Below the pieces are notes generated by a model. That model had not been told where the DNA came from, did not search any database, and saw only the letters and a program-made list of their open reading frames with translations. From an uncultured Pelagibacteraceae bacterium (GTDB lineage Bacteria > Pseudomonadota > Alphaproteobacteria > Pelagibacterales > Pelagibacteraceae), in contig CACKXF010000009.1 in the NCBI GenBank assembly GCA_902604065.1, positions 1 to 40,900 on the forward strand: a DNA stretch of 40,900 nucleotides, written 5' to 3'. A program made the translations under genes and the position numbers. Below are positions 10,065-13,146 of this stretch, piece after piece; within the stretch, counting starts at the first letter, position 1, and each line of letters opens with the position of its first letter.

Positions 10065-11546
10065 ATGAAACTATTCATAATTCTTGGCAATCAGCTTTTC
10101 AATCCAAAGTATTTAAGCCCATACAAAGATCATATATTTTTTATGGCAGAAGACTATAACCTTTGTACCTTTGAAAAGCACCATAAACTTAAGATCCTCC
10201 TTTTTTTATCATCTATGAGATCTTTTAAAGATGAACTAAAGTCTAAAAATTTCAATGTAGTATACAAGGATGTAAATAAAGATTTTAAAGTTTCTTATGA
10301 AAAAAAACTTGAAAAGATAATTAAAGATAAAAAAATAAGAGAAATTTCATTTTTTGATATCGAAGATAAATTTTTTGAAAAAAGAATATTAACCTTAATC
10401 AAAAAAAATTCATTAAAAGTAAATCAAATAAAATCTCCTATGTTTTTAATGGATAGAAGCGAATTTAAGAATTATCTGTCAAAGAACAAAAGACCTTTTA
10501 TGGCTAATTTTTATAAAATAGTTAGAACAAAGATGAACTTGTTAATGAATAAAAACGGTTCTCCTAAAGGTGATAAATGGAGTTTTGATGAAGATAATAG
10601 AAAAAAATTACCAAGCTCTATTAAAATTCCAATAATTTCAAAAATTAAAGAAACAAAAGAAACTTTAATACTTAAAAAATTTATAGGATCAAATTTTAAT
10701 AGTCACCCAGGAAATCTCGATCAATTTTGGTTTCCAACTACTAGAAAAGATGCAAATAAATGGCTAGATGAATTTTTAAAAGAAAGAATTAAATTGTTTG
10801 GTGATTATGAAGATGCTGTCACAGATAAGTCTAACACAGTCTTTCATAGTGCTTTAAGTCCATTAATTAATTTAGGGTTAATAACGCCAGGTGAAATTAT
10901 AGAAAAATTAAGAAAGTTAGAAAATAAAGTTCCAATAAATTCTTTAGAAGGTTATATAAGACAAATTATCGGCTGGAGAGAATTTATGAGAGGAATTTAC
11001 CAAAATTATGATCAGAGATTAGAAAAAACAAATTTTTTTAACCATAAAAGAAAAATGAAAAATTCATGGTATGATGGAACTACTGGTTTAGATCCACTTG
11101 ATCACGCAATTAATAATGCAAAAAACTTTGGATGGTCACATCATATAGAAAGATTAATGATATTAGCCAATATAATGAATCTTTGCGAAATAAACCCTAA
11201 GCAGGTTTATAAATGGTTTATGGAAATGTTTGTGGACTCTTCTGACTGGGTAATGTCTCCAAATGTTTATGGAATGGGATTGTTTAGTGACGGAGGAATA
11301 TTTGCTACTAAACCGTATATTTGTGGATCAAGTTATTTTTTAAAAATGATGCATTTTAAAAAAGGTCCATGGTGCGATGTAATGGACGGACTTTACTGGA
11401 AATTTATTGAAAGACATAAAAAATTTTTTTTAAAAAATCCACGCCTTGCAATGATGGTTAGAATTTTAGAAAAAATGAATAAAGAGAGAAAAATGAGAAT
11501 TTTTAAAGCTGCAAATAATTTTATAAAAGAAAATACTAATGGTTAA
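10065..11546 (+). CDS. Cryptochrome/photolyase family protein (FeS-BCP / PhrB class)
   Basis: This 493-residue flavoprotein belongs to the bacterial cryptochrome/(6-4)-photolyase class (COG3046 type), which binds FAD and repairs UV lesions or senses light. The N-terminal antenna domain covers about residues 1-130 (LFIILGNQL start). The FAD domain contains HSALSPLINLGLITP, YIRQIIGWREFMRG, GWSHHIERLMILANIMNL and SPNVYGMGLFSDGGIFATKP. Class members use four cysteines for a [4Fe-4S] cluster. Here C374 (LCEINP) and C437 (PWCDVM) remain, but the C-x2-C pair expected between GGIFATKPY and LYW is absent; C420 is nearby. The downstream DCC gene overlaps by 8 bp, then DUF2256 follows. Confidence 0.88.
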   Translation: MKLFIILGNQLFNPKYLSPYKDHIFFMAEDYNLCTFEKHHKLKILLFLSSMRSFKDELKSKNFNVVYKDVNKDFKVSYEKKLEKIIKDKKIREISFFDIEDKFFEKRILTLIKKNSLKVNQIKSPMFLMDRSEFKNYLSKNKRPFMANFYKIVRTKMNLLMNKNGSPKGDKWSFDEDNRKKLPSSIKIPIISKIKETKETLILKKFIGSNFNSHPGNLDQFWFPTTRKDANKWLDEFLKERIKLFGDYEDAVTDKSNTVFHSALSPLINLGLITPGEIIEKLRKLENKVPINSLEGYIRQIIGWREFMRGIYQNYDQRLEKTNFFNHKRKMKNSWYDGTTGLDPLDHAINNAKNFGWSHHIERLMILANIMNLCEINPKQVYKWFMEMFVDSSDWVMSPNVYGMGLFSDGGIFATKPYICGSSYFLKMMHFKKGPWCDVMDGLYWKFIERHKKFFLKNPRLAMMVRILEKMNKERKMRIFKAANNFIKENTNG

Positions 11547-11889
11547 AGTTTTTTTTAATAATTCTTGTAATATATGTAGAACAGAGATTAATCATTATAA
11601 AAAACATTGCGATGATAATATAATATGGATTGATGTTACTGACAATCAAGATGCACAAAATATAACATCAAAATCATACGAAGAACTTTTAAGAAGAATG
11701 CATGTTATACAAGACGGCAAGGTGATTGATGGAGCTGAGTCTTTTCTAATTATCTGGAAAAATATACCAAAATATAATTTTTTATATAATATTTTTAAGA
11801 TAAAACCCCTATTTTTTTTTCTAAATATATTTTATGAAATTGCCGCTTATTTTTTATTTCTAAAAAATAAACACCTTTTAAAAAAATGA
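11539..11889 (+). CDS. DCC-family (DUF393) thiol-disulfide-type protein
   Basis: This 116-residue protein has the DCC family layout: an N-terminal beta strand leading into a thioredoxin-like CxxC (FFNNSCNICRTE, residues 5-16), a central IDVTDNQ strand, a GAESFLIIW segment, and a hydrophobic C-terminal half. The family's usual leading Asp (DG.C..C) is Asn here. Function is unproven; redox activity is predicted from the CxxC. It overlaps the photolyase gene by 8 bp and the DUF2256 gene by 4 bp (ATGA), so the three are translationally coupled. DCC genes are often found beside photolyase genes in bacteria (established association, recalled rather than checked). Confidence 0.82.
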   Translation: MVKVFFNNSCNICRTEINHYKKHCDDNIIWIDVTDNQDAQNITSKSYEELLRRMHVIQDGKVIDGAESFLIIWKNIPKYNFLYNIFKIKPLFFFLNIFYEIAAYFLFLKNKHLLKK

Positions 11890-12020
11890 AAAAAACCCAA
11901 CTTCCAAAAAAAATTTGTCCAATATGCAATAGATCATTTACTTGGCGAAAAAAATGGAGACTCAATTGGGAAAAAGTAAAATATTGTTCTAAAAAATGCT
12001 CTAGATCTAACTCAGTTTAA
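11886..12020 (+). CDS. DUF2256 zinc-ribbon-like small protein
   Basis: This 44-residue gene is easily missed because of its size. It reads MKKTQLPKKICPICNRSF at the N-terminus, then TWRKKWRLNWEKVKYCSKKC. This matches the DUF2256 pattern: LPxKxC, CxxC, FTWRKKW, then YCSxxC. The four cysteines (two CxxC-like pairs) suggest one bound zinc ion. Its ATG overlaps the DCC stop (ATGA). DUF2256 genes are typically next to cryptochrome/photolyase genes, which is the case here, but no biochemical role is known to me. Its last 14 bases overlap the 3' end of the convergent short photolyase gene. Confidence 0.88.
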   Translation: MKKTQLPKKICPICNRSFTWRKKWRLNWEKVKYCSKKCSRSNSV

Positions 12021-13146
12021 AAGTTGATAATATTATTGGTATATTTGATTTAAAATTAAAATACCCTTTATTGGAGAATTTCCAACAAAATTCGTCCTCT
12101 TTTCGGGTTTTAAAATTTATATTGAGATCGTTATTTTTTACTAATTTTTTTAAAAATGAAAAATTTTCTCCGATAGATGGGTAAATAGCATCAAATGATT
12201 TATAAGTTTTAATAAAGTTTATTAAACCATTTTCATCTAATAATTCAGCTTCAAAATTCAATTCTTTAAGTTGGGATTTGATGACGTTTGTTTTAAAATC
12301 CATTACTTTTGTAGATAATTTTATTGATCTACTTTTATTGTCTAGCAAAACAAAATAAATTTTTTTATATTTTTTACACTCAAGAAAATCAATATGCATT
12401 TCATTTTCAAACACAATTAAATGTTCATTTAAATCTTCTCTCTTACTAATTTGAACAGGAGAAATTTTATATTCCCTTTTGTCTATAATTGGCAAAGCAG
12501 TCTCATTTAGCTTAATATTTTTATATTTATTATTTGTAAATTTGCTTATATTCCAAGATTGAGCTAAATAGTTTTTTCCTTTTGTCTGTATTCCTGCAAC
12601 CCAGCGCCAACTTAAAGTGTTAGAAGCCGCATCTCCGTCATATAAGTGTTTCATAAAAAATTCTGCCCCCTTTTGCCAAGGCAACCCTAAGGTAAATATC
12701 CAAATACTTGCGAACAACATTCGGGTATGATTATGAAGATAATTAAAATTTTTCAATTCTTTTACCCAGTCGTTAAAACATTCGATTTCTGTTTCACCAT
12801 TTATTGCTTTCAAAAAATTTTCATCTTCTTTAATTGTTTTGATATCTTCTATAAAGTCACCCCAAACTTTGGGTCTTTGTTCAAGCCAGCCTTTCCAATA
12901 AATTCTCCAAAATATTTCTTGAATAAACTTATCTACTTTTTTAAAAGGATATTTTTTTAAGACAAGTTTTACAGTTTCATACTCAATAATTAGTCTATGA
13001 GTTATATAAGGTGACAAACAAGAAACATTACTTCTATTAGTTACACCGAAGTCAAAGCTTCTTTTAGTGTTGTAATTAGAGATGTCACTTTCCAAAAATT
13101 TATTGAGCTTATTTAAAGCTTCTGATCTAGAAGTTACAAAATGCAT
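12007..13146 (-). CDS. Short photolyase-like FAD protein with C-terminal antenna-like domain
   Basis: This 379-residue protein starts directly with the photolyase FAD-binding domain. SCLSPYITHRL (residues 42-52), IFWRIYWKGWLEQRP, NYLHNHTRMLFASIWI (135-150) and LYDGDAASNTLSWRWVAG (168-185) are the FAD-pocket signatures, including N176 near flavin N5. No N-terminal antenna domain precedes them. Instead residues 240-375 look like that alpha/beta domain placed at the end (EHLIVFENEMHIDFL, KIYFVLLDNKSRS, FCWKFSNKGYFNFKSNIP). The protein could be a light-dependent DNA repair enzyme or a photoreceptor. It is the last gene of the msrA operon; its ATG shares one base with the stop of the small membrane protein gene. 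Confidence 0.8.
   Translation of the reverse strand: MHFVTSRSEALNKLNKFLESDISNYNTKRSFDFGVTNRSNVSCLSPYITHRLIIEYETVKLVLKKYPFKKVDKFIQEIFWRIYWKGWLEQRPKVWGDFIEDIKTIKEDENFLKAINGETEIECFNDWVKELKNFNYLHNHTRMLFASIWIFTLGLPWQKGAEFFMKHLYDGDAASNTLSWRWVAGIQTKGKNYLAQSWNISKFTNNKYKNIKLNETALPIIDKREYKISPVQISKREDLNEHLIVFENEMHIDFLECKKYKKIYFVLLDNKSRSIKLSTKVMDFKTNVIKSQLKELNFEAELLDENGLINFIKTYKSFDAIYPSIGENFSFLKKLVKNNDLNINFKTRKEDEFCWKFSNKGYFNFKSNIPIILSTFKLS

Follow-up and report, generated by a model that had tools for sequence, protein, structure and literature searches.

A probable NewPHL-type photolyase in SAR11 bacteria, with the FAD domain first and an alpha/beta domain last, encoded beside a (6-4) photolyase gene

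An uncultured Pelagibacteraceae bacterium carries a gene for a photolyase-like protein in which the FAD-binding domain comes first and an alpha/beta domain follows. The protein is very probably a member of the NewPHL class (Phr7 in Prochlorococcus), FAD photolyases that invert the usual domain order and act on cyclobutane pyrimidine dimers (CPDs), an assignment based on class descriptions in later papers and on the homologue of Ruegeria sp. TM1040 as a pairwise stand-in. The reversed order has been in print since 2020 as NewPHL; what is new here is the SAR11 member. SAR11 is a major group of the surface ocean, and the main value of our analysis is that it places NewPHL in this group, where the gene is common and is paired with a (6-4) photolyase gene. 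The literature searched contained no description of NewPHL in SAR11 and none of a circularly permuted photolyase, weak negatives since most subscription papers lay outside it.

The window is the whole stretch of DNA that we analyzed, 40,900 nucleotides. Its relevant features are:

10065 to 11546, plus strand: FeS-BCP-type (6-4) photolyase gene (PF04244 and PF03441), convergent with the NewPHL-type gene
11539 to 11889, plus strand: DCC1-like thiol-disulfide oxidoreductase gene (PF04134), between the two photolyase genes
11886 to 12020, plus strand: DUF2256 gene (PF10013), whose 3′ end overlaps the 3′ end of the NewPHL-type gene by 14 bases
12007 to 13146, minus strand: NewPHL-type photolyase gene, 379 amino acids, with ATG at 13146 and stop at 12007-12009 (from the open reading frame, Pfam, phmmer and a check of the upstream frame)
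12472 to 13146, minus strand: predicted N-terminal FAD-binding catalytic domain, residues 1-225 (from Pfam, phmmer and a structure match with best Z 15.4)
12010 to 12429, minus strand: C-terminal alpha/beta domain (Z-domain), residues 240-379, with an antenna-like fold in the AF2 model
12049 to 12066, minus strand: C-terminal motif G-Y-F-N-F-K, residues 361-366, conserved in a 53-row alignment

The open reading frame that an earlier note on this DNA had placed at 12007-13146, giving no strand, proved correct and lies on the minus strand. Since a stop occurs three codons upstream of the ATG, no antenna domain precedes the FAD domain in frame, an arrangement that the earlier note had raised as a way its reading could fail. 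Across 40 homologous loci, the frame upstream of the aligned start is open for 0-58 codons; L012, one of the 40, is truncated where its contig stops. The stop rules out that an N-terminal antenna was missed through a wrong start. An assembly artefact or a frameshifted ordinary photolyase was also ruled out because the same architecture recurs, with matches below E 1e-80 in 60 of 121 genomes and further cases across Alphaproteobacteria.

The N-terminal part contains the FAD-domain motifs that the earlier note had quoted. PF03441 (FAD_binding_7) covers residues 74-198 (Pfam scan, E 1.3e-17). Using phmmer, we aligned residues 2-193 with residues 199-395 of E. coli photolyase; thus, no counterpart of residues 1-198 of ordinary photolyases stands before the FAD domain. 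Model residues 1-225 match the FAD domains of solved photolyases (VIA-align, best Z 15.4), and the domain is shorter than usual, with 211 residues aligned over a 266-residue span in 1dnp. The best PDB sequence match was to an Agrobacterium photolyase (4u63, E 1.8e-14), over residues 8-187 only. Given this best match, a NewPHL structure seems to be absent from the PDB copy searched.

In the phmmer alignment, E. coli R226, E274, W277, N341, and M345 correspond to R29, E77, W80, N139, and M143 of the SAR11 protein, and W359, N378, W382, and W384 correspond to W157, N176, W180, and W182; we take these to be the catalytic and substrate residues. R29, E77, W80, N139, M143, W157, N176, and W180 occur without exception in the 53 family rows, which include close relatives, and W182 is present in 51. 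By equivalence of numbering, N176 is presumably the FAD-contacting asparagine. NewPHL keeps such an asparagine, according to the accessible text of PMC12083526. The active site is of the CPD type and, as far as the alignment shows, is served by a Trp dyad, W180-W157. E107 takes the place of the triad's third Trp (E. coli W306), a position that is not conserved in the 53 rows, and a Trp occurs somewhere within residues 97-115 in 11 of the 53. The lack of the third Trp fits the “mere Trp dyad” ascribed to the Dinoroseobacter shibae NewPHL in the accessible part of PMC8948257. W127 (53/53 rows) or W95 (50/53 rows) might serve as a stand-in for the third Trp. The only cysteines are at positions 43, 123, 257, and 354; none lies between residues 190 and 240, where three short photolyase-like (SPL) proteins (L067, L068, and L207) carry a cysteine cluster.

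Structure prediction supports the alpha/beta-like segment that had been read after the FAD domain. The full-length AF2 model (36 rows; pLDDT 88.2, pTM 0.89) has C-terminal strands at 242-246, 262-266, 300-303, 317-321, and 342-346, with helices between. The earlier note had also likened an opening strand and a closing segment to the ends of an antenna domain. The closing segment, CWKFSNKGYFNFKSNIP, was modelled as two helices (349-355 and 361-374). Within the G-Y-F-N-F-K motif, G361 and F363 are invariant (53/53 rows) and residue 366 is always K or R. Predicted alone, the C-terminal domain reached pLDDT 80.5 and pTM 0.71 (AF2, 21 rows). Foldseek and VIA-align searches with the whole model in effect probed residues 1-225; this domain was also searched by itself. 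The 16 best VIA-align rows were all photolyases or cryptochromes, 14 of them aligned wholly inside the N-terminal domain. The top row was 4dja residues 2-165 (Z 8.3, rmsd 3.8, 139 aligned) and the first other fold was 4a2i_V (Z 6.7); rows from Z 7.6 down are tied with that fold (within 1), and a Z of about 8 is close to the program's warning level for a possible common arrangement. Foldseek placed PhrB first (E 3.8e-3), with PPAT enzymes close behind from 4.6e-3. These scores, obtained with a predicted domain, are modest and speak to fold, not function. The separate comparisons that the earlier note had proposed gave a photolyase FAD domain and, at these modest scores, an antenna-like C-terminal domain; neither program ranked an unrelated fold first, and the reversed order stands on both sequence and structure prediction.

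No sequence search linked the C-terminal domain to antenna domains. Beyond the FAD domain, Pfam returned no family at E up to 1, and none at E up to 10 when the segment was scanned alone. A scan of 21 aligned members at E up to 10 returned 13 families, with PF00875 and PF04244 absent; the best E was 0.0028, none was a photolyase family, and the HMMER filters drop most weak matches. An hmmsearch of the PDB with the domain yielded no photolyase chain, its single match being a glycosyltransferase (E 0.91). With hhalign and 53 rows, the domain scored 28.9 against the DPRP antenna domain (P 5.8e-4, probability 29%, co-linear over 109 columns), 19.4-20.7 against the class I antenna, 20.5 against USP, 18.2 against CTP_transf, and 11.2 against ETF. 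An earlier run with 31 rows gave 19.6 for DPRP, 0.5 for class I antenna, 9.1 for USP, and 1.6 for CTP_transf. The observed score was reached by none of 100 shuffled profiles each for DPRP, USP, and CTP_transf, by one for class I antenna, and by 23 for ETF; no reversed profile scored above 13.9. The profiles comprised 29 of 30 loci for class I antenna, 15 of 18 for DPRP (later 40 rows, with 25 of 25 more), 22 of 30 for USP, 27 of 30 for CTP_transf, and 25 of 30 for ETF, loci cut by a contig end or not entered having been dropped. Among reference pairs, class I antenna and DPRP, an accepted relationship, scored 33.4, and class I antenna and USP 34.4. Since ETF-USP (27.8) and CTP_transf-USP (27.4) score much like our domain and DPRP, a score near 28 is a mark of the wider superfamily and not of the antenna in particular. 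Together, fold and profiles point weakly to a HUP-like domain whose best likeness is the antenna domain of Fe-S (6-4) photolyases, and the profile link to DPRP is suggestive. A C-terminal profile built from SAR11 alone matched just residues 371-407 of the Ruegeria protein (one-sequence search, i-E 3e-5); except in the final 40 residues, the two C-terminal domains share little likeness.

We determined how widely the gene occurs. The 60 genomes with strong matches include the window's own and three with partial matches (G051, G026, and G072). In 44 of the other genomes the match is weaker and confined to the FAD part, mostly within frames of ordinary-photolyase length, and 17 show neither kind of match. 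At least 576 loci were confirmed in genome contigs. Among the best 80, one is titled SAR86 and 79 are titled Pelagibacteraceae or Pelagibacter; by these 79 titles, the window is SAR11. Nearly full length (53% identity over query residues 17-374), the SAR86 copy (L133) sits on a contig whose title, “uncultured SAR86 cluster bacterium”, names a gammaproteobacterium. The gene may have been transferred, or the contig may be a contaminant or belong to a single-cell genome with the wrong label. The conservation samples covered the host's class and phylum only. In the class-wide sample of Alphaproteobacteria, 31 of 288 genomes matched at E up to 1e-30, the window's own among them; 23 of these loci (L042-L064) have both FAD and C-terminal domains (379-428 amino acids with the starts that we chose), and six (L065-L070) are of the short, FAD-only SPL type; with the window's own, this classifies 30 of the 31. 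Among the matches listed for the phylum-wide sample (397 genomes), the 32 rows that span the whole profile are all Alphaproteobacteria; the others cover the FAD part, two of them continuing to profile positions 272 and 285 through a stop codon.

Mobile elements and divergent relatives were also represented. Of 164 matching plasmid records, six hold at least 80% of one homologue (L053) in one place. Five of the six are annotated, all as “FAD-binding domain-containing protein” (Ruegeria, Novosphingobium, Peteryoungia, and two Asticcacaulis). The homologue of Ruegeria sp. TM1040 (Roseobacteraceae) aligns end to end with the SAR11 protein (31% identity, E 7e-79). Ten phage records match the SAR11 protein at E up to 1e-5, none across 80% of its length. 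SAR11 relatives also encode a very divergent photolyase-like protein (L203, in genome G094; branch length 7.9) that by eye has an apparent N-terminal antenna domain, and similar weak matches, in frames of 487 amino acids, occur in G096, G106, G114, and G115.

The NewPHL-type gene adjoins a second photolyase gene. In the window, the (6-4) photolyase, DCC1-like, and DUF2256 genes form a plus-strand run (10065-12020) that converges on it. Comparison of coordinates in the 24 genomes with the best matches among the 121, all of the window's genus, showed that 24 of 24 carry a PF04244 match on the same contig as the NewPHL match, in opposite orientation and at a distance of 0.95-1.3 kb. In a wider set of 91 loci, 47 have a (6-4) photolyase inside the stored flank, 32 lack one although each side extends for at least 2.5 kb, and the flanks of the other 12 are short.

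We also asked which other photolyases these genomes encode. PF00875 was found in 0 of 12 genomes comprising the window's own and the 11 whose copies of the gene resemble it most (82-85% identity), and in six of the 12 genomes in the rest of the compared set. With genomes that are 60-90% complete, one absence on its own says little, but twelve of them carry weight. All 12 PF00875-negative genomes (G000, G001, G016, G025, G027, G033, G042, G051, G060, G062, G067, and G070) hold a PF04244 (6-4) photolyase in addition to the NewPHL gene. In the window's genome (75% complete), PF03441 finds two proteins only, the NewPHL-type enzyme and the (6-4) photolyase. These data suggest that the ordinary CPD photolyase was lost in this clade of 12 SAR11 genomes, and the NewPHL-type enzyme may be the sole CPD photolyase of the window's genome and its 11 closest relatives.

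A mechanism can be proposed from the predicted domains. The N-terminal alpha-helical domain (1-225), with its complete CPD-type active site, would bind FAD; light-excited reduced FAD would pass an electron to a cyclobutane pyrimidine dimer, splitting it, and would be re-reduced via W180-W157, a dyad of the kind described for other members. The alpha/beta domain at the C-terminus (240-379) probably serves to close off the FAD pocket, not to hold an antenna pigment. In NewPHL, this domain reportedly seals the FAD site. By extension from other members, the SAR11 protein would repair CPDs in single-stranded DNA. An enzyme limited to single-stranded DNA is somewhat at odds with the absence of PF00875 from the nearest genomes: if it acted on single strands only, the clade would be without a dedicated photolyase for CPDs in double-stranded DNA. 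With apparently no other CPD photolyase in the clade, either NewPHL repairs double-stranded DNA there, or the cells use excision repair.

Could the protein instead be a degenerate or light-sensing relative, a cryptochrome-like protein that does not repair DNA? The loss of the third Trp of the usual chain and the noncommittal annotation of the plasmid homologues would fit, but the CPD-repair residues are invariant in 53 of 53 rows (51 of 53 at one position), the gene adjoins the (6-4) photolyase gene in all 24 genomes compared, and it is kept in all 12 genomes where a PF00875 photolyase was not found. We regard such a protein as very improbable. How the domain order arose is a separate matter, on which the earlier note had offered a circularly permuted photolyase or a short photolyase with a convergent C-terminal domain; the reversed order has held, and permutation as the event behind it is rivalled by fusion. 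Under permutation, a head-to-tail duplicated photolyase would have been trimmed so that the old antenna domain is now last and still holds pigment. The structural searches of the isolated domain (photolyases and cryptochromes in the 16 best VIA-align rows, led by 4dja at Z 8.3, and PhrB first in Foldseek at E 3.8e-3) speak for this event, as does the DPRP profile score of 28.9, unmatched by 100 shuffles and set against 20.5 for USP, 18.2 for CTP_transf, and 11.2 for ETF. However, the domain has no sequence match to PF00875, PF04244, or PDB photolyase chains, hhalign gives its pairing with DPRP a probability of only 29%, and scores are similar for other pairs of HUP or Rossmann domains. The class I antenna score (19.4-20.7) is reached by one of 100 shuffles, USP and CTP_transf likewise beat all 100, VIA-align rows at Z 7.6 and below tie with other folds, and PPAT enzymes trail PhrB closely in Foldseek. 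The FAD domain, moreover, is shorter than usual and nearest to antenna-less SPL in the larger of two trees. We consider a true permutation unlikely.

We favor over permutation the fusion of a HUP-type (USP- or antenna-like) domain onto the C-terminus of an SPL core, in which case the permuted look would be a convergent layout. The tree with short photolyase-like proteins that the earlier note had called for gave a divided answer. In an 82-row quick tree of FAD domains, with long branches flagged for L203 and FeS-BCP, the family forms one clade (SH-aLRT 99) that joins SPL (SH-aLRT 95). A 56-row quick tree, consisting of 47 of these rows plus nine FeS-BCP outgroup rows with L203 dropped, also carries a long-branch warning and leaves the order of SPL, ordinary photolyases, and the NewPHL-type family unsettled (SPL support 49), which disfavors a firm SPL origin. 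As the FAD domain joins SPL in one tree and is unsettled in the other, fusion of a domain to a short photolyase explains the data no less well than permutation. Fusion is also consistent with the stretch past the catalytic Trp, which is SPL-like by eye (NRENLDRNTDGR in L067 and NRDNLVKYTDGK in L068, against NIxKFTNGR in the family), with L206, from another class of the phylum, where a C-terminal extension of another kind follows an SPL-type FAD domain, and with the placement of Phr7 closest to Phr4/Phr6 (PMC9426592, accessible text). The antenna-like fold, on the other hand, need not be coincidence, and we hold independent fusion to be about evenly poised between right and wrong. If real, the likeness of the predicted C-terminal fold to the Fe-S (6-4) antenna bears on the source of the domain. 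A bolder proposal, that NewPHL combines a short-photolyase core with a truly homologous antenna domain from the Fe-S (6-4) photolyases, one of which is encoded next to it in SAR11, and took over all CPD photorepair, including that of double-stranded DNA, in the window's SAR11 clade, strikes us as distinctly doubtful. The antenna-origin idea is not wholly new, as the accessible text of PMC9426592 calls the Z-domain “an atypical, short photolyase domain”.

Among known systems, the SAR11 protein most resembles NewPHL/Phr7. As described in the accessible part of PMC9426592, Phr7 of Prochlorococcus consists of an N-terminal FAD domain and a C-terminal Z-domain and is without Fe-S cysteines. The SAR11 protein shares this layout, with no N-terminal antenna, together with the Trp dyad (W180, W157), the CPD-type active site, and the absence of Fe-S cysteines; its C-terminal domain was equated with the Z-domain of the literature via position, size, and the end-to-end Ruegeria homologue. 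“NewPHLs or SPLs” with inverted domain topology are named from four species, D. shibae, M. mesophilicum, E. litoralis, and R. centenum, in the accessible text of PMC13274461, and CPD repair in single-stranded DNA is reported for D. shibae and M. mesophilicum (Emmerich et al., 2020, NAR 48:12845, as cited by PMC9426592, in part accessible). Unlike the described NewPHLs, the SAR11 enzyme adjoins a (6-4) photolyase gene, its nearest genomes have no PF00875 match, and its activity is predicted only; unlike the Roseobacteraceae homologue, it has a strongly diverged C-terminal domain.

SPLs, short photolyase-like proteins without the N-terminal alpha/beta domain (Xu et al., 2021, per the accessible texts of PMC9649867 and PMC9178010), also lack what the SAR11 protein lacks, and its FAD domain is nearest to theirs in one tree. 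The SAR11 protein, however, continues beyond the FAD domain with an alpha/beta domain of 140 residues, whereas SPL-type proteins (L065-L070, L204, L205, L207, and L208) stop about 20-40 residues past their FAD domain with no C-terminal domain, L067, L068, and L207 having a cysteine cluster there. Phr4/Phr5 and Phr6 of marine Synechococcus and Cyanobium likewise place FAD first and the alpha/beta domain last, and the accessible part of PMC9426592 gives them reverse domain order and Fe-S cysteines; unlike the SAR11 protein, they have four such cysteines and a recognized DNA photolyase domain. L206 (genome G735; 415 amino acids) combines an SPL-like FAD domain at about 1-210 with a C-terminal extension that has no Pfam match at E up to 1, and no cysteine cluster was seen; the protein is possibly another C-terminal fusion, comparable to Phr6 of Cyanobium. 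Class I/III CPD photolyases carry a PF00875 antenna before the FAD domain, in contrast to the SAR11 protein, which has no PF00875. Finally, FeS-BCP (PhrB, 4dja; PF04244) has the opposite domain order and another class of FAD domain, yet its N-terminal antenna is, among those compared, the closest match to the SAR11 C-terminal domain in both fold and profile.
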